IMG/VR virus record: IMGVR_UViG_3300013101_000124
Location: 1 to 21,182 of that record
Direction: 5' to 3' (one strand)
From: a virus
DNA length: 21,182 nucleotides
Shown: positions 3-21,182 of the stretch, in pieces
Position numbering within the stretch: the first letter of the stretch is position 1
Layout of the letters: each line of letters opens with the position of its first letter
Made by a program: the position numbers and the translations under genes
The notes under the pieces: model-generated
The model's input: the letters and a program-made list of their open reading frames with translations, nothing else
Databases searched by the model: none
What the model was told of the DNA's origin: nothing

Positions 3-107
3 GCAGCGCTTTTTACATTGAGTAAGAGGGGAGTTCAAGTTAGTGGAACCAATGCAGAACCGTTGACTTATCTTGTAGATTTAATATTAAAAAAGGCTTT
101 GAAATGA
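3..107 (+). CDS. C-terminal end of an upstream gene (partial)
   Basis: Frame 3 is open from the left edge of the window and stops at TGA 105-107. It encodes about 34 residues ending in DLILKKALK, a basic, probably helical tail. The stop overlaps the next gene's start as ATGA, the usual arrangement for co-transcribed, translationally coupled phage genes, and that supports this being the real frame. Frames 1 and 2 close within the first 24 bases. Too little of the protein is present to assign a family. By position it could be the last gene of a DNA-metabolism block, but nothing in the sequence shows this. Confidence 0.55.
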   Translation, partial: AALFTLSKRGVQVSGTNAEPLTYLVDLILKKALK

Positions 108-649
108 AATTAAGAATATATACGGACACGCATCTTTTCTCACCGATGCGAGATATCACATCAATAAACAAAATAGAGAAGTCATATTTTATAGGTGATA
201 TCGTTGATCTTGCGAATGTAAAAAAGAAAGATTATAAAAACGCTATGCTAAACTATTCACATCTAAAGCCGAATTCTAAAGGTTGGATCGACGGAAATCA
301 TGAACGGGTGTCTATAACAAATGATGTTATTAGAATAGAAAACACTCTTTTAGTCCATGGGGATTTTGAAGCATGGGGTGATAAACGGGCAATTAAGTAT
401 AGATCTAAAAAACACACTGCAGGTTGGTTTAAGCGTAACATTTGGGTTAGAGCTTTAAAGAACTTTGAAAAGTTAGTTAAGCATGTACCTAAGAAAAAAA
501 TGATTGATAGATTGGTCTCACACGCTAAGTTTAGAAATTGCGACACTATCATTTGCGGACACAGGCATCCAAGAACTACTTATGATAAAATGAATGAAGG
601 TGTTAGGGTGGTAGTCTTAAAGCGTGGATTAAGTGAGATAGATGTTTAA
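104..649 (+). CDS. Calcineurin-like metallophosphoesterase
   Basis: A 181-residue protein with the full series of metal-binding motifs of the calcineurin-like phosphoesterase superfamily: DTH at residues 8-10, GDIVD at 31-35, GNHE at 64-67, a VHGD motif at 84-87 and GHRHP at 152-156. These residues normally bind two divalent metal ions and hydrolyse a phosphoester. The family includes nucleases, protein phosphatases, cyclic-nucleotide phosphodiesterases and UDP-diacylglucosamine hydrolases, so the substrate cannot be named. The length matches a minimal catalytic domain, and residues 95-140 form a basic, Lys/Arg-rich insert that might contact nucleic acid or a phosphorylated surface. The gene starts inside the stop of the upstream gene and ends in a TAATG overlap with the next, so it is probably co-expressed with the genes leading to the terminase. 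The fold call is firm; the role is unknown. Confidence 0.88.
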   Translation: MKLRIYTDTHLFSPMRDITSINKIEKSYFIGDIVDLANVKKKDYKNAMLNYSHLKPNSKGWIDGNHERVSITNDVIRIENTLLVHGDFEAWGDKRAIKYRSKKHTAGWFKRNIWVRALKNFEKLVKHVPKKKMIDRLVSHAKFRNCDTIICGHRHPRTTYDKMNEGVRVVVLKRGLSEIDV

Positions 650-4934: not shown

Positions 4935-5825
4935 ATGAGTGAAGCACCAGGAAGCACACCTGCAGGCACAGAAGGGGCGGCACCCGCTGCGGCAGCGAGT
5001 CCAGACGTACAAATCGGAGTCATAGACCAAGGCGTGGCAAAAGGCCTAGACGCGGGTGGGGCTAGTATATCTAAAGATTGGACAAATAATTTCTCTGAAG
5101 ACCAAAAAGCTTTTGTGACTAATAAGGGTTTTAAAGATGCAGCTTCGGTTTTAGATTCGTATGTTAATTTAGAAAAGTTAAGAGGAGTTCCACAGGATAG
5201 ACTTTTAAAGCTTCCTGAAACTGCGGACGCGCCGGAATGGGCGGACATCCATACTAAATTAGGAAAGCCCGCAAGCGCCGACGGTTACGGAATTAAGTCT
5301 GAAGGGGATAACACTGCTTTTTCTGACTGGGCGAAAGACGCGTTTTTTAAAAATAATATTACTAAAACTCAAGCTGAAGGTTTACTTGCTAACTTAGCTG
5401 ATTTTTCTACAGGACAAGAGACCAGTAATGCCGAATCATACGAGACCGAAGTCGCGAATGCAGACATTCAATTGAAAAAAGATTGGGGTACGGCGTACCA
5501 CCAAAACATAGCATCAGCTCAAAGAGCGGCGAAAGAATTCGGAATTCCTGAAAACGCTATAGATGCTTTAGAAATAGCTATAGGCTTTGATGGGACTATG
5601 AAGTTCATGCATTCAATAGGTACAAAATTGGGTGAAGCTGGGTTTGTGGCTGGGAATCCTATGACGGGTTTTGGAGAGTCAGCGGTTTTAACGCCTCAAC
5701 AAGCCATTGCTCAAATTGGAATTTTGAAAAAAGATTCAAGTTTTGTAGCGAAATATACTACCGGAGATTCAGACGCTAAAGCAAAAATGTCTAGATTACA
5801 TCAAATGGCATATCCGAGCAGTTGA
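4935..5825 (+). CDS. Probable capsid scaffolding protein
   Basis: A 296-residue acidic protein immediately before the major capsid gene, the standard scaffold position (T7 gp9). Residues 1-45 are a disordered Ala/Gly/Pro-rich segment. Residues 48-120 contain a module recognisable in podovirus scaffolds: NFSEDQKAFVTNKGFKD (52-68), a VNLEKLRGVPQDRLLKLPE region (77-95) and TKLGKPASADGYGI (107-120). The rest is mostly helical, including the KKDWGTAYHQN segment (181-191), and ends in a basic helix around residues 281-291 that could bind the capsid shell. No protease motif is evident. It would guide capsid assembly and leave before or during packaging. Translation starts 3 bases after the upstream stop. 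The stop at 5823-5825 is followed by the hairpin-containing capsid leader. Confidence 0.85.
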   Translation: MSEAPGSTPAGTEGAAPAAAASPDVQIGVIDQGVAKGLDAGGASISKDWTNNFSEDQKAFVTNKGFKDAASVLDSYVNLEKLRGVPQDRLLKLPETADAPEWADIHTKLGKPASADGYGIKSEGDNTAFSDWAKDAFFKNNITKTQAEGLLANLADFSTGQETSNAESYETEVANADIQLKKDWGTAYHQNIASAQRAAKEFGIPENAIDALEIAIGFDGTMKFMHSIGTKLGEAGFVAGNPMTGFGESAVLTPQQAIAQIGILKKDSSFVAKYTTGDSDAKAKMSRLHQMAYPSS

Positions 5826-5970
5826 CAAATATCGGGGATAGGGTTTAGCCTATCCCTACAAGTCGATAACCTCTTGGCCGACGATCTAAAAAGATTGAAA
5901 TTCTGGCCCTATATATTTAGACAAGCCCAAAAAGCAGCAAATTAATTCTAACTATATAAGGGGGCTTACA
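5826..5970. promoter_or_regulatory. 145-base leader before the major capsid gene
   Basis: This is the longest stretch without a gene in the window. It carries an 8-bp perfect hairpin near its 5' end and a strong ribosome site AAGGGGG at 5958-5964, about 6 bases before the capsid ATG. A second possible pairing is CCCTATATA (5907-5915) with TATATA-A-GGG (5953-5962), a 9-bp helix with one bulged A. It would cover the ribosome site and, if real, could modulate capsid translation. No convincing sigma-70 promoter was found: TTGACA at 5822-5827 and TTGAAA at 5895-5900 lack a correctly spaced -10. A phage-specific promoter cannot be excluded, since no phage RNA polymerase is available to define its motif. 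The length and structure fit a control region for the most abundant virion protein. Confidence 0.5.
5835..5856 (+). terminator. RNA hairpin after the scaffold gene (terminator or processing site)
   Basis: GGGATAGG (5835-5842) pairs perfectly with CCTATCCC (5849-5856) around a 6-base loop GTTTAG. An outer G-U pair (5834/5857) can extend it. It lies 9 bases after the scaffold stop. No run of T follows, so a classic intrinsic terminator is unlikely. It could be a weak terminator, an RNase III-type processing site as known between late genes of T7-like phages, or an mRNA-stabilising structure at the 5' end of a capsid transcript. The base pairing is seen directly; the role is inferred. Confidence 0.6.
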
Positions 5971-17081: not shown

Positions 17082-20000
17082 ATGGCAATTACAACTTTAA
17101 ACAATAGAGTATCTTATGCAGGGGATGACGGAACGACCGTGTTTTCTTTTCCAAATAAGTTTCTATTAGATGCGGATTTAGTGGTTATAATTAGAGATGC
17201 TCTAGACGTTGAAACCGTTCAAACTATTACAACTCACTATACAGTTTCAGGTGCGGGCGTAGACGCGGGCGGCAACGTAACTATGATAACACCCCCTGCA
17301 ACGGGCGAGACCTTAATCATTTACAGAGACCCTAGCCCTACTCAGGAATTAGATTTAAGAGAAAATGATTCAGCTCCCGCTGAAGCGCAAGAAACGGCGT
17401 ATGACAAACTAACGATGCTTGTTCAAAGACTTATAGATATAGATGAGAGAACTATTAGTTTATCAGATGGGTTCACAGATACTTTTGATTTAACATTACC
17501 GTCGGAGTTAACTGCGGACACTGTGATAGGTGTTAACGCCGGCGGAACTGCTTTAGAAATGAAGACAGGCGACGATTTAATGTCACTTGCAGGGGCCTTA
17601 CTAATAGCAAATGATTTGAGTGATTTAAATTCAGTGTCTACAGCACTTGTTAATTTAGGAATTAATCTTTATGACTCTAGAATAACTACTAACGCTTCAG
17701 GGGTCTCAACAAATGTAACAGACATTAACGCTCTTGAAACTACTCTTTCAGGTGGTACGGGCGCAGTAGTTTGGACAACACTCGCGCAGACGCTATCAAA
17801 TAAAACTTTTTCAGATCCGATTATGGCAGCGGACGGAACCTCTAGTTTACCGAGTTATACTTTTTCAGCGGATTTAAACACTGGAATGTATAGGTCAACT
17901 GCAGATACTTTAGAATTAGTAGGCGGCGGGTATGCTGCTCTTCAAGTAAAAAAATCAACTGGGAGTTTTGCTAACATTGGAATGGGCGGTAACGCTTCAG
18001 TGAGTGATTCGTTTCCCTTATTAATAGAAAGAAATATTGCTGCAGGCATGACGATTCAAGCCGCTAATCCAAACGGCGGAGCTAGTGCGGCTAGTAAAAT
18101 AGTTTTAAAAGCGGGAATAGGAAGCGTTGATACCGGCGAGATTGCGCTTTGGCCTACGGCTCAAACACTCCATGCCTACCAAAATAGATTAGTAATTAGG
18201 TCGTCCGACTCCGCAGCGGGTATTTCTCTTGTAGGAAGTGGAAGTGGTGCCGACGATGTAAGAATATACAATGGTGGTGTTGCATCCACGAATGAAAACA
18301 TAAGATTTAATGCTGATTATTCAATGCAAATCATGCAAGAAATTTCAACCCCTGCAAGCCCTTCAGCGAATACGCATAAGCTTTACGCGAAATCTGATGG
18401 GAAATTATATAGACTTAATAGCGCAGGGGATGAAAAAGAATTAGGCGCGGGCTCAGGTAGTGGAGTTAACTTTATTACTAACCCGGATATAGAATCCAAT
18501 ACCAACGATTGGAATTTATATAAAGACGCCGCAGGCGCAGAGCCAGTAGACGGGACGGGCGGGACATCAACTTTAAATTTAACTAGAATAACAACCTCAG
18601 GGTTTGTTTTATCTGGGACCGGATCGCTTAACCTAGGACAAGTCGCAGGTACCGACCGACAAGGTGAGGGTGCGAGCGCGGACATAGTCATAGATAACGA
18701 GTATATGCTTAAAACAATTATAGTTAGATTTACCTACGCGACTAGTCTCACCTTTATAAGCGGAGAATTTAAAGCTTTTGTTTATGACGTTGATAATGCA
18801 ACGCTATTAGGGCCTTTAAGTAATGACAACGATGGTGAAATTATTAATGGGGGACTAGATTCTGGCGGGGTTGGCATTGAAAATTCTAGAAACTTCTTAG
18901 GGACCTTCACTGCGACAGACAGTTTAAATTATAGAATTATACTTCATAGACCTACTACCTCGACAGTGGGTTCCGAATTATATTTGGATACAATAAAAGC
19001 GGGTCCAGATACTTTTGGCCCTGGGTATATCGGTACAAACCCACAAGCCTACACCCCAACCTTTACAGGATTTGGAACCGTAACAGGCGTAGAAGTTTCC
19101 CATTGGAGAGAAGGTAAATTTTTAAAAATAAGGGGACGAGTTACCGCAGGAACACTTACCGCTGTAGAAGCGAGAGTTAGCTTTCCTAATAGTTTAGTAT
19201 CTGACCCGGTAGCACTACCAAATATACAGAAAGTTGGTATGGCGGGATATAGTCCCTCATTCGCTAGGGATTTATATACACTTGGTGAGCCTAGTGTAAG
19301 TTACTTCACCTTTTCTGTTCAATCAGGTGGGGCGTTTAATAAACTAACAGGAACATCTTTAGGGTCTCCTGGAGAAATATTTACTTTTGATGCTGAAATA
19401 CCTATTGAAACTTGGCAAGCTTCCAACCTAATCTCAACTCAAGAGGCTAATTACTTAACTATAAAGGCTAAATATATAACAACCGCAGGGCAATCAATTA
19501 CTAATGCGGCCCCTGCGACAAACATAGTTGACTATGGGACTTCAGATTATGACACCCACAGCTCGGTTACTACAGGAGCGGCTTGGAAATTTACAGCCGC
19601 AAGAGCGGGTAAATTTGACGTTAAAATATTTAATTTATTCGCAGCCACTTCGACGTTTGCAGTAGGTGAACGACTTATAGGCTACATATATAAAAACGGC
19701 GTACAAGATACCTATATCGCTTTTATGTTTGGCAGTGGGGCAACTAATAACGTCGCCGCGATAGGTAGTGCATCAGTATTACTCGCTAAAGATGACTATA
19801 TAGACATTCGACTGGACCAAAATAGCGGGGGGGCTTTAAGTTTATCCACTAACACCGGGGCTAACCATATATCTATAACAGAGGATGTGGATTTTAAAAC
19901 TTTTGGGGTTTATAAAGTCGATGAATTAGTTGAGTCTCAAGGCCAGCCGTTCACTTTTCCGGCTTGGGCGGGACCTGCTAACTGGCTTGATATAGTTAAT

Positions 20001-20327
20001 TTTGATCTAAGTTTCGGGACCTGGCAAGTCGAAATCATAGCTAGGCACAGAACGTCTTCCGGGGTCACGCCAGGAGCAGCAAGTGACGTTTATACTCACA
20101 TTCACACCGTAAGTGGAAACAACGCCGGAACTCTTCTGTATGGAGAAAATGCGTCCGTTGCCCCTATGCCTAACGCTATACTACAGTCTATGCACCATAC
20201 CTTTATATCCGAGATAACCGTTACGGATACCACAACATACTATTTAAAACAAAAATGTGATGTTAACCCGACGGCTAGTTCTCTAAGATTAGATTATTAT
20301 AAAGTAATAGCTAGAAGGATTAAATAA
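17082..20327 (+). CDS. Modular tail fibre / receptor-binding protein
   Basis: A 1081-residue fibre. Residues 1-150 resemble the T7 gp17-type virion-anchoring domain: NNRVSYAGDDGTTVFSFPNKF, a central strand set with YTVSG, an IIYRDPSPTQ strand, and an acidic helix ending in DIDERTISLSD. Residues about 249-275 carry a shaft motif common in phage fibres (DGTSSLPSYTFSADLNTGMYR). Residues 463-640 form a beta-rich module opening NFITNPDIESNTNDW, like carbohydrate-binding domains. Residues 657-760 contain YTPTFTGFGTVTG and RVTAGTLTAVEARVSFP, a recurrent phage fibre-tip module. Two further beta-sandwich domains, about 790-935 and 945-1080, look C1q/TNF-like. No chaperone-type peptidase end or C-type lectin variable region is seen. 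It probably forms trimers that bind a surface glycan. Ribosome site AAAGGA. Module boundaries are approximate. Confidence 0.88.
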   Translation: MAITTLNNRVSYAGDDGTTVFSFPNKFLLDADLVVIIRDALDVETVQTITTHYTVSGAGVDAGGNVTMITPPATGETLIIYRDPSPTQELDLRENDSAPAEAQETAYDKLTMLVQRLIDIDERTISLSDGFTDTFDLTLPSELTADTVIGVNAGGTALEMKTGDDLMSLAGALLIANDLSDLNSVSTALVNLGINLYDSRITTNASGVSTNVTDINALETTLSGGTGAVVWTTLAQTLSNKTFSDPIMAADGTSSLPSYTFSADLNTGMYRSTADTLELVGGGYAALQVKKSTGSFANIGMGGNASVSDSFPLLIERNIAAGMTIQAANPNGGASAASKIVLKAGIGSVDTGEIALWPTAQTLHAYQNRLVIRSSDSAAGISLVGSGSGADDVRIYNGGVASTNENIRFNADYSMQIMQEISTPASPSANTHKLYAKSDGKLYRLNSAGDEKELGAGSGSGVNFITNPDIESNTNDWNLYKDAAGAEPVDGTGGTSTLNLTRITTSGFVLSGTGSLNLGQVAGTDRQGEGASADIVIDNEYMLKTIIVRFTYATSLTFISGEFKAFVYDVDNATLLGPLSNDNDGEIINGGLDSGGVGIENSRNFLGTFTATDSLNYRIILHRPTTSTVGSELYLDTIKAGPDTFGPGYIGTNPQAYTPTFTGFGTVTGVEVSHWREGKFLKIRGRVTAGTLTAVEARVSFPNSLVSDPVALPNIQKVGMAGYSPSFARDLYTLGEPSVSYFTFSVQSGGAFNKLTGTSLGSPGEIFTFDAEIPIETWQASNLISTQEANYLTIKAKYITTAGQSITNAAPATNIVDYGTSDYDTHSSVTTGAAWKFTAARAGKFDVKIFNLFAATSTFAVGERLIGYIYKNGVQDTYIAFMFGSGATNNVAAIGSASVLLAKDDYIDIRLDQNSGGALSLSTNTGANHISITEDVDFKTFGVYKVDELVESQGQPFTFPAWAGPANWLDIVNFDLSFGTWQVEIIARHRTSSGVTPGAASDVYTHIHTVSGNNAGTLLYGENASVAPMPNAILQSMHHTFISEITVTDTTTYYLKQKCDVNPTASSLRLDYYKVIARRIK

Positions 20328-20328
20328 A

Positions 20329-20544
20329 ATGCAATTCAATGACTTTATATATTGGGCTTTTTTATCGGTTATTTCTGGTGCAGCGGTTTATGGTGTTGGC
20401 ATTTTAACAAAACTAAACGACTCTATAAAAAAACTTAATGTTACCGTGGCGCAAATGATAGTTAAGCATGAATATCACGACAAAGAGATTGAAGAGCTTA
20501 AAGGTGACTTAAAAGAGCTAAGACGTCTTTGTAGTATTAACTAA
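20329..20544 (+). CDS. Small membrane protein with coiled coil (holin- or spanin-like?)
   Basis: A 71-residue protein with one clear membrane segment at about residues 8-27 (YWAFLSVISGAAVYGVGIL) and a charged amphipathic helix at 30-66 containing KLNDSIKKLN and DKEIEELKGDLKELRR. The ATG lies one base after the fibre stop, and AAGGA in the end of the fibre gene can serve as ribosome site. In T7 the holin gene 17.5 occupies the place just after the fibre. The topology, one N-terminal membrane anchor followed by a coiled coil, also fits an inner-membrane spanin, although 71 residues is short. Without an endolysin in view neither role is shown. Confidence 0.62.
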   Translation: MQFNDFIYWAFLSVISGAAVYGVGILTKLNDSIKKLNVTVAQMIVKHEYHDKEIEELKGDLKELRRLCSIN

Positions 20545-20560
20545 ACAAAAAGGGGACATA

Positions 20561-20899
20561 ATGGGAAAAGGAATTAAAGAGATAAAAGAGCTATTAGTTT
20601 TTATAGCGTTACTAATTAATGCCTCAGACAGGGCCACAAAAGACGGTCTAGGAATCGACGACATAGTTCTTTATATGCCTGCACTTTTAAAAGCGCCTGA
20701 AGCTTTTATGGGAATGGCAGAAATGAACGCGGAGTTTAATGACTTAAGTCTTGATGAAGTAAAAGAGTTAGAAGTTCTTTTGTCAAAAGAGCTTGATCTT
20801 GTAGACGATAAGTTAGAGGGATTAGTTGAAAAATCATTAGGGCTATTAGTTCAGATAGTAGCGTTGATTAAAGAGATAAAAGGCTTAAGATCTGCGTAA
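20561..20899 (+). CDS. Helical phage protein of unknown function
   Basis: A 112-residue acidic, almost wholly helical protein. It contains KEIKELLVFIALLINASDRA (6-25), a DDIVLYMPALLKAPEAF segment and a long C-terminal hydrophobic-faced helix GLLVQIVALIKEIKGL. A ribosome site AAGGGGA lies about 6 bases before ATG. I recall small phage proteins of this general type, with an amphipathic N-terminal helix, a central linker and an acidic DLVDDKLEGLVEK region, near fibre and lysis genes, but no function is known to me. The hydrophobic helices could lie on or insert in a membrane. It is best called hypothetical, possibly linked to lysis with the preceding membrane protein. Confidence 0.62.
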   Translation: MGKGIKEIKELLVFIALLINASDRATKDGLGIDDIVLYMPALLKAPEAFMGMAEMNAEFNDLSLDEVKELEVLLSKELDLVDDKLEGLVEKSLGLLVQIVALIKEIKGLRSA

Positions 20900-20938
20900 A
20901 TCTATTTTAGTTTTATTAATTGTTAAATTTTTAATATA

Positions 20939-20963
20939 TGTGGGTAGGGATATCTTACCCACA
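20939..20963 (+). promoter_or_regulatory. Strong RNA hairpin before the lipoprotein gene
   Basis: TGTGGGTAGG (20939-20948) pairs with CTTACCCACA (20954-20963): ten pairs with one G-U and a 5-base loop GATAT. It ends 12 bases before the lipoprotein ATG and directly abuts the weak ribosome region GCGAAAG. No T-run follows, so it is not a classic terminator. It may terminate or process the upstream transcript, or limit ribosome access to the lipoprotein start. The 76-base gap holding it is otherwise AT-rich, with no convincing sigma-70 promoter. Confidence 0.6.
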
Positions 20964-20975
20964 GCGAAAGACTTT

Positions 20976-21182
20976 ATGAAACGACATGAGTTTATTTCTT
21001 TTATATTCCTTGCGCTTATTATGATCTTAATGGTTTTGTTGGCGACAAGTTGTTCGTTAGTAAATCAAAAACTAGATTACAATAAAGTTTACAGAAGAGA
21101 CATAAAACTAGAAGTAAATGGCGAGACTTTTGACGGTGTAGCTGTGCCTTCTAGATCAATTTCATATAGAATTAAAATGCAA
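20976..21182 (+). CDS. Putative lipoprotein, start of gene (cut by the window end)
   Basis: An open frame of 69 codons running off the right edge. It begins MKRHEF, a short basic n-region, followed by a hydrophobic core rich in Phe, Ile, Leu and Met and a lipobox-like LATSC with cysteine at residue 26, so a lipoprotein signal peptide is likely. The mature part starts CSLVNQKLDYNK and continues with a beta-rich segment (IKLEVNGETFDGVAV). The ATG was chosen for the best signal-peptide shape; the ribosome site is weak (GCGAAAG). The same frame stays open upstream to 20889 and would encode a second hydrophobic stretch, but with no ATG and only CTG or GTG (20940, inside the hairpin) starts. Candidates are an outer-membrane spanin or a superinfection-exclusion or receptor-masking lipoprotein; the visible part cannot decide. 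Confidence 0.65.
   Translation, partial: MKRHEFISFIFLALIMILMVLLATSCSLVNQKLDYNKVYRRDIKLEVNGETFDGVAVPSRSISYRIKMQ

Follow-up and report, generated by a model that had tools for sequence, protein, structure and literature searches.

The window, by which we mean the whole stretch of 21182 bases analysed, is a virus record with the gene content of a podophage as judged by PHROGs and Pfam, and it is probably a fragment of a podophage genome. Its 3' end carries a tail fibre gene followed by three ORFs, here called A, B and C, the last of which runs off the record. The features used below are:

Terminase, matching PHROG 2.
Portal, matching Head-tail_con (1.8e-108) and PHROG 332.
Capsid, matching Phage_capsid_2 (2.5e-73).
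Bbp19-like protein, by a Pfam match.
1269-aa protein with an LPD38 domain, termed internal virion protein in this analysis.
17082..20327, + strand: tail fibre gene (1081 aa), whose N-terminal ~118 residues match tail-fibre-type N-terminal families.
20329..20544, + strand: ORF A (71 aa), a membrane helix (9-27) and then a charged coil-like tail.
20561..20899, + strand: ORF B (112 aa), helical and lacking a clear membrane segment.
20939..20963, + strand: hairpin between B and the start of C, with a 10-bp stem and no U-tract.
20976..21182, + strand: ORF C, the N-terminal 69 residues of a lipoprotein, with signal peptide and lipobox.

The PHROG tail matches of the fibre (best 4.8e-32) cover residues 1-116. 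No endolysin was found by Pfam among 20 of the window's ORFs, no Rfam family reached its gathering threshold in the window and no tRNA was found there. Separately, a calcineurin-like phosphoesterase (3.9e-5) lies at window 104-649, ahead of an HTH protein and the terminase. The closest annotated genome found, through the 1269-aa protein (51 phage records), is that of podophage ct8d5349 (L002; MW202898; 38694 bases, circular), which shares the virion gene order of the window (TerL 69%, portal 63% and capsid 54% identity) and also encodes a lipoprotein of the family of C after its fibre gene. By contrast, ct8d5349 carries an SLT endolysin between its membrane protein and its helical protein, where the window has no gene. 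A search of the open-licence literature for ct8d5349, UOF83072 or MW202898 returned no paper. The capsids of two IMG/VR relatives, L007 and L011, are 80% and 77% identical, respectively, to that of the window.

The three ORFs that an earlier note had placed after the fibre gene are all present, in tight order and on the same strand as the fibre gene, with A beginning 2 bases past the fibre end. Their best matches reached only 0.006 in PHROGs (A), 0.041 in Pfam and 0.029 in NCBIfam, and PADLOC returned none, so that the statement that none belongs to a nameable family holds. A had been described as a one-pass membrane/coiled-coil protein, and it has indeed a single hydrophobic segment (residues 9-27, mean Kyte-Doolittle 1.67) and a charged tail that appears helical or coiled by eye. 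By the positive-inside rule the positively charged flank of a membrane helix lies inside, and since the positive charges of A come after the helix, an N-out orientation is suggested. The i-spanin of a two-component system has an N-terminal membrane helix, N-in, and a periplasmic coiled coil, whereas A has helix 9-27 and then the coil-like tail. We tentatively set A aside as an i-spanin, as no spanin PHROG matched it and its charges suggest N-out. Holins are small membrane proteins whose timed lethal lesions release the endolysin; the single helix of A is compatible with their one-helix class, although no holin family of PHROGs, Pfam or NCBIfam matched. In T7 the holin gp17.5 is encoded directly 3' of the gp17 fibre gene, and A resembles it, by description rather than by sequence comparison, as a small membrane protein immediately 3' of a T7-type fibre, but differs in having one membrane helix and a coil-like tail. 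From these sequence features, A is a candidate holin-like protein or inner-membrane partner. The description of B as a hydrophobic helical protein is fair, but B is not a clear membrane protein, as its best hydrophobic segment (residues 85-103) scores 1.59 on the Kyte-Doolittle scale against a usual cut of 1.6.

ORF C, called a lipoprotein in the earlier note, bears this out by a hydrophobic signal (2.92) that ends in the lipobox ATS|C, and by its homologues. From the ATG at 20976 the signal and 44 mature residues are visible, and the residue after the lipid cysteine is Ser; a GTG at 20940, inside the hairpin, is an alternative start. The frame is also open upstream of the ATG back to the end of gene B (20862-20978) and encodes a second hydrophobic stretch there, SILVLLIVKFLIYV, which is not preceded by ATG, GTG or TTG in this interval. 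Among 400 random 855-base sequences of window composition, one contained a + strand lipobox ORF of at least 40 aa, and 35 of 100 random 21182-base sequences had at least one lipobox ORF on either strand. Cores with a hydrophobicity of at least 3.0 averaged 0.05 per random window, and the core of C reaches 3.5.

Two-sequence comparisons relate C to P0001 of the IMG/VR record 3300035074_000025 (L009; 45% over 51 aa, E 3e-15) and to P0002 of ct8d5349 (28% over 53 aa, E 5e-9). A further member, in IMG/VR 3300005831_000008 (L047), was found by a motif scan for GRHxW and ATLxC at fixed spacing, and its lipoprotein matches P0002 at 36% over 222 residues (E 1e-40). These three full-length relatives (211 aa in ct8d5349, 225 aa in L047 and 228 aa in L009) keep the lipid cysteine and six further cysteines, a pattern that suits an exported disulphide-bonded protein; the scan motifs that they share reflect how they were selected. 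A weak match of C in L014 (E 0.005) was dropped, as it lies in an unrelated ORF without lipobox. Modelling of P0001 from its single sequence was poor (pLDDT 39), and a three-row alignment gave the best model (mean pLDDT 62.9), which is all-beta besides the signal and one short helix, with an immunoglobulin-like first domain. Foldseek and VIA-align 2 paired it with immunoglobulin-like chains (best Z 7.2, rmsd 3.3, 87 aligned), among them RbmA 4be6 (Z 7.0, rmsd 4.2, 168 aligned), and since Z values below 8 may indicate only a common arrangement, we take them as a hint of an immunoglobulin-like fold and read no function from it. The best match in BFVD is a large virion protein, several others there carrying Ig-like or BACON domain names, and no solved structure was related by sequence (best 0.047). 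By sequence and model, the C-terminus of all three full-length relatives is charged and beta-rich and has no membrane segment. A unimolecular spanin was rejected for C on account of the missing C-terminal membrane helix in these three relatives, the C-terminus of C itself lying beyond the record end.

The neighbourhoods of the full-length relatives are as follows:

ct8d5349 (L002): 58-aa protein with C-terminal membrane helix, SLT transglycosylase, 94-aa helical protein, 38-aa ORF, lipoprotein.
L047: 66-aa coil-plus-membrane-helix protein, NlpC/P60 enzyme, 109-aa helical protein, opposite-strand ORF, lipoprotein.
L009 (G002): homologue of the 58-aa protein (44% over 55), another ORF, lipoprotein.

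Thus, two of the three have the order small membrane protein, endolysin, helical protein, lipoprotein, the endolysins (SLT, 2.3e-14, in ct8d5349; NlpC/P60, 2.1e-15, in L047) being different enzymes and the helical proteins homologous (34%, E 3e-13). In L009, a GH108 endolysin is encoded on the opposite strand, ~5.6 kb beyond the lipoprotein gene; a phosphoesterase-like ORF, larger than that of the window, was noticed by eye shortly 3' of the lipoprotein gene. In L047, the 66-aa protein weakly matches a holin/anti-holin entry (E 0.042), and the membrane proteins of ct8d5349 and L047 are laid out as coil and then helix, that of the window as helix and then coil. The phage of L047 gave no BLAST match at E 0.01 to 22 tested ORFs of the window, and its capsid, nearest to SU10_MCP (0.00024, below Pfam's cut-off) and PHROG 14242, is of a different family; its terminase and portal match the broad PHROGs 2 and 332, as do those of the window, which makes it a distant relative rather than an unrelated phage. 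The retention of helical protein and lipoprotein while virion genes diverged beyond BLAST suggests that this pair moves between phages as a module. Whether B belongs to it is less clear: compared with the helical proteins that precede the lipoprotein in ct8d5349 and L047, B gave a BLASTP E of 0.057 and an hhalign E of 0.0056 (probability 6.5%, 27 columns), and 169 and 56 of 2000 shuffles reached its scores, values that are suggestive only of a relationship. Neither 25 pattern stretches of viral contigs nor a search of 50,697 phage records with E values up to 1 gave a relative of B.

Relatives of the window found through the internal virion protein comprise 24 IMG/VR loci and four phage records (L002-L005), and we inspected 12 post-fibre slots by eye (ct8d5349 and 11 IMG/VR loci with readable post-fibre genes), leaving out L003-L005 (two pelagiphages and BA3, all partial records), which had no + strand lipobox ORF in the stretches examined. 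With slot bounds set by eye, a lipobox widened relative to the stricter scan described below and a chance level computed for window composition only, nine of the 12 slots have a + strand lipobox ORF, two of them doubtful:

ct8d5349 (L002) and L009: members of the family of C.
L007 (69 aa), L011 (122), L031 (89), L033 (44) and L044 (77): slot lipobox ORFs.
L038: doubtful, as a GTA_holin_3TM-like gene runs across it in another frame.
L045: doubtful, as it overlaps a long opposite-strand ORF.

The seven outside ct8d5349 and L009 do not match the family of C. L010, L012 and L032 have no slot lipobox ORF, the records of L010 and L032 ending within about 720 bases. Pfam endolysin domains occur in 4 of the 12 slots (L002, L031, L012 and L038), and in 5 of 14 when the window and L047 are counted, the latter standing outside the 12 because it was found through its lipoprotein. 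In L007's phage, a CHAP endolysin (1.6e-7) is encoded directly before the terminase (L056 7262-7867), and its lysis genes may thus be split. A stricter lipobox scan (six frames, ORFs of at least 40 aa, minimum signal 10, as the lipoprotein of ct8d5349 was missed at 12) found this lipoprotein as the only lipobox ORF of the complete ct8d5349 genome, and extra weak minus-strand lipobox ORFs elsewhere (one in G001, two in G002). Widening the box raised these minus-strand counts to one for ct8d5349 (50 aa), two for G001 and three for G002, and in each case the core is less hydrophobic than that of the lipoprotein of the same genome. The two closest relatives also encode a second, different small lipoprotein outside the late genes (L056 1592-2062, - strand; L059 10456-10845, + strand), recognised by eye, with a shared GTWYNS...TTDT motif and without a Pfam match.

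Membrane-coil proteins of some relatives gave weak Rz-like matches (phrog_739, E 0.0088 in L038 and 0.047 in L031). A itself matches PHROG 3534, a family of unknown function, weakly (E 0.006), as does the post-fibre protein of L045 (2.2e-5); no relative of A was found among 60 pattern stretches of viral contigs. When A was compared with 12 post-fibre proteins, 2, 3, 4 and 14 of 1000 shuffles reached the score for L033, L045, L012 and L047, respectively, and at least 35 for the other eight, a likeness that may reflect coil composition only. Such weak homology of A, and likewise of B, together with the differing content of the post-fibre slot between close relatives, would be expected if A, B and C were unrelated small late genes that are neighbours by chance, B being a virion or assembly protein. 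We consider this quite unlikely, as helical protein and lipoprotein recur together beside an endolysin in two distantly related phages.

The interval before C bears on how the lipoprotein is expressed. The hairpin at 20939-20963 (-15.3 kcal/mol), whose inverted arms pair in 8 of 8 positions and which covers the alternative GTG start, stood out from shuffled sequence at 20930-20970 (z -4.8, 0/200 shuffles as good) and less so with the wider stretch 20900-20980 (z -2.3, 4/200). The corresponding gap of ct8d5349 has a longer G+C-rich stem followed by five T (z -2.0, 8/200 shuffles as good) that our terminator scan did not flag, and that of L047 has no notable hairpin (z -0.2) and an opposite-strand ORF instead. 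By eye, this ORF between helical protein and lipoprotein is RusA-like (5548-5886, - strand). Terminator-like sites, compared with shuffles, numbered 3 vs 3.0 at the window end, 2 vs 1.8 in ct8d5349 and 0 vs 1.3 in L047, and promoter-like sites 16 vs 10.1 (sd 2.9), 7 vs 3.4 (sd 1.6) and 3 vs 7.7 (sd 2.8), respectively. Hairpins or the opposite-strand ORF may mark separate expression of the lipoprotein; in L009, on the other hand, the lipoprotein gene begins before the preceding ORF has ended, which points against a transcription boundary.

Separate expression, which hairpin or opposite-strand ORF would permit in three of four loci, also fits a superinfection-exclusion or receptor-shielding lipoprotein that blocks the phage receptor, so that progeny avoid infected cells and debris, as with T5 Llp and Rtp45, A and B then being separate lysis or accessory genes. 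C shares with T5 Llp, T1 Cor and Rtp45 that it is a phage lipoprotein, probably of the outer membrane, able to form disulphides, and its place beside the fibre gene, its patchy occurrence and the six cysteines conserved in addition to the lipid cysteine would suit a receptor-facing protein. Phage lipoproteins that exclude superinfection are known and work at the outer membrane from its periplasmic face (PMC9586334, PMC12685063). By contrast, Rtp45 is about 6 kDa (PMC12685063), and the family of C is several times larger, has a beta-rich two-part model and lacks a match to known families. Moreover, closeness to endolysin genes in two of the three relatives would be unexpected for an exclusion gene, and a shared receptor is not evident, as the fibre matches of the window to ct8d5349 or L009 lie only within the N-terminal 192 residues at most (BLAST, one segment per pair). 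Exclusion is somewhat unlikely in our estimate, yet it stays a strong rival of a lysis role, because C's relatives are unlike spanins in size and build, no inner partner is fixed and there are signs of a transcription boundary.

The family of C is rare, with members in 1 of 50,697 phage records and in two viral contigs. Of eight scans of viral contigs, four were aimed at the lipoprotein family (yielding 1 of 106 stretches, a single stretch, 2 of 3 true and 2 of 44), and one motif-scan stretch, L046, was rejected as a member by sequence comparison; as pattern scans reach close matches only, these counts are lower bounds. P0001 had no match in 72,556 plasmids, and no member was found in five records of the closest relatives, L007 and L011. 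A genome pattern scan gave 14 stretches with no relative by tblastn at 0.01, and a profile search, run with no positive control, gave none in six genomes or in 398 genomes of the phylum of G004 (Zoogloea). Rarity and patchiness, along with integrases in relatives (xerD-type, as annotated, in ct8d5349; a tyrosine recombinase, Phage_integrase 7.6e-23, in L056), could mark C as a cargo gene (moron) that a prophage expresses and that alters the host surface for reasons besides lysis or phage exclusion. We regard this as decidedly improbable: by a simple consensus scan, the gap immediately ahead of the lipoprotein gene contains no + strand promoter-like site in the window, ct8d5349 or L047, and the bacterial genomes yielded no relative, although empty answers of this kind prove little.

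Two-component spanins (lambda Rz/Rz1 and the T4 type) pair an inner-membrane coiled-coil protein with a lipobox lipoprotein, often in a lysis cluster, a combination that A, with its coil-like tail, and C recall, and C has the lipobox followed by Ser of an o-spanin, as read from its sequence. According to a spanin survey (PMC6139136), o-spanins of the T4 type likewise contain conserved cysteines and a beta-alpha-beta stretch, and two spanins together average at most 250 residues, a length that a single full-length relative of C nearly reaches. Judged by these relatives of 211, 225 and 228 aa, C is thus not short as o-spanins are, and it differs further in that its gene stands apart from the membrane-protein gene and that neither C nor A matches a spanin PHROG. 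With relatives that are too long and, by a moderate-confidence model, beta-rich, and with upstream membrane proteins that form no conserved pair and include no identifiable i-spanin, A and C are not a standard spanin pair, and the earlier proposal of spanin-like inner and outer partners is not supported at the level of family. In that survey (PMC6139136), no spanin was found in about 13% of the surveyed phages (91 genomes), among them BPP-1, BIP-1 and BMP-1 of Bordetella and Thalassomonas phage BA3, with the question of how these breach the outer membrane; 31 genomes had a lipoprotein without i-spanin, and proteins of another topology might, it notes, take the spanin role. The internal virion protein of the window has BA3 among its matches; the link to BPP-1 is a Bbp19-like Pfam match only.

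On the basis that similar genes adjoin a cell-wall-cutting enzyme in two related phages, A, B and C probably help to burst the host cell, and position, nearby endolysins and a recurring slot lipoprotein favour a part for C in lysis at the outer membrane and one for A at the inner membrane. We therefore tentatively propose, as a possible reading, that A-B-C is the start of an exchangeable lysis or envelope module in which C serves the outer-membrane lysis step. The lysis set of the earlier note is thus supported by context, endolysin and small membrane protein adjoining the family of C in ct8d5349 and L047, but not by an endolysin in the window itself. Against a lysis module also count the lack of a fixed inner partner, the weak homology of B, the distant endolysin of L009 and the closest relatives L007 and L011 without a member. 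The open-licence literature yielded no report that joins three or more of four themes: a phage lipoprotein, superinfection, an immunoglobulin-like fold and a lysis cassette.

We infer the export, location, timing, partnership and function of the module proteins as follows. A would be a small protein of the inner membrane, either a holin type or an inner-membrane partner, and B a small helical accessory protein. C would be exported, lipid-anchored and beta-rich, perhaps with two immunoglobulin-like domains, and would probably sit on the outer membrane facing the periplasm, where it would most likely carry out or assist the outer-membrane lysis step, doing the job of a spanin lipoprotein by a different structure. 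Taken further, this lipoprotein of ~220 aa, probably with two Ig domains, might be a new outer-membrane disruptor that replaces spanins in kin of phages listed as spanin-less, accompanied by interchangeable small inner-membrane and helical proteins, in a module passed on together with varying endolysins among phages that are only distant relatives; we hold this extended version to be unlikely. A lipoprotein family of different build, found beside endolysins in two distantly related phages, nevertheless offers a concrete candidate for how the outer membrane may be breached in phages for which no spanin has been found.
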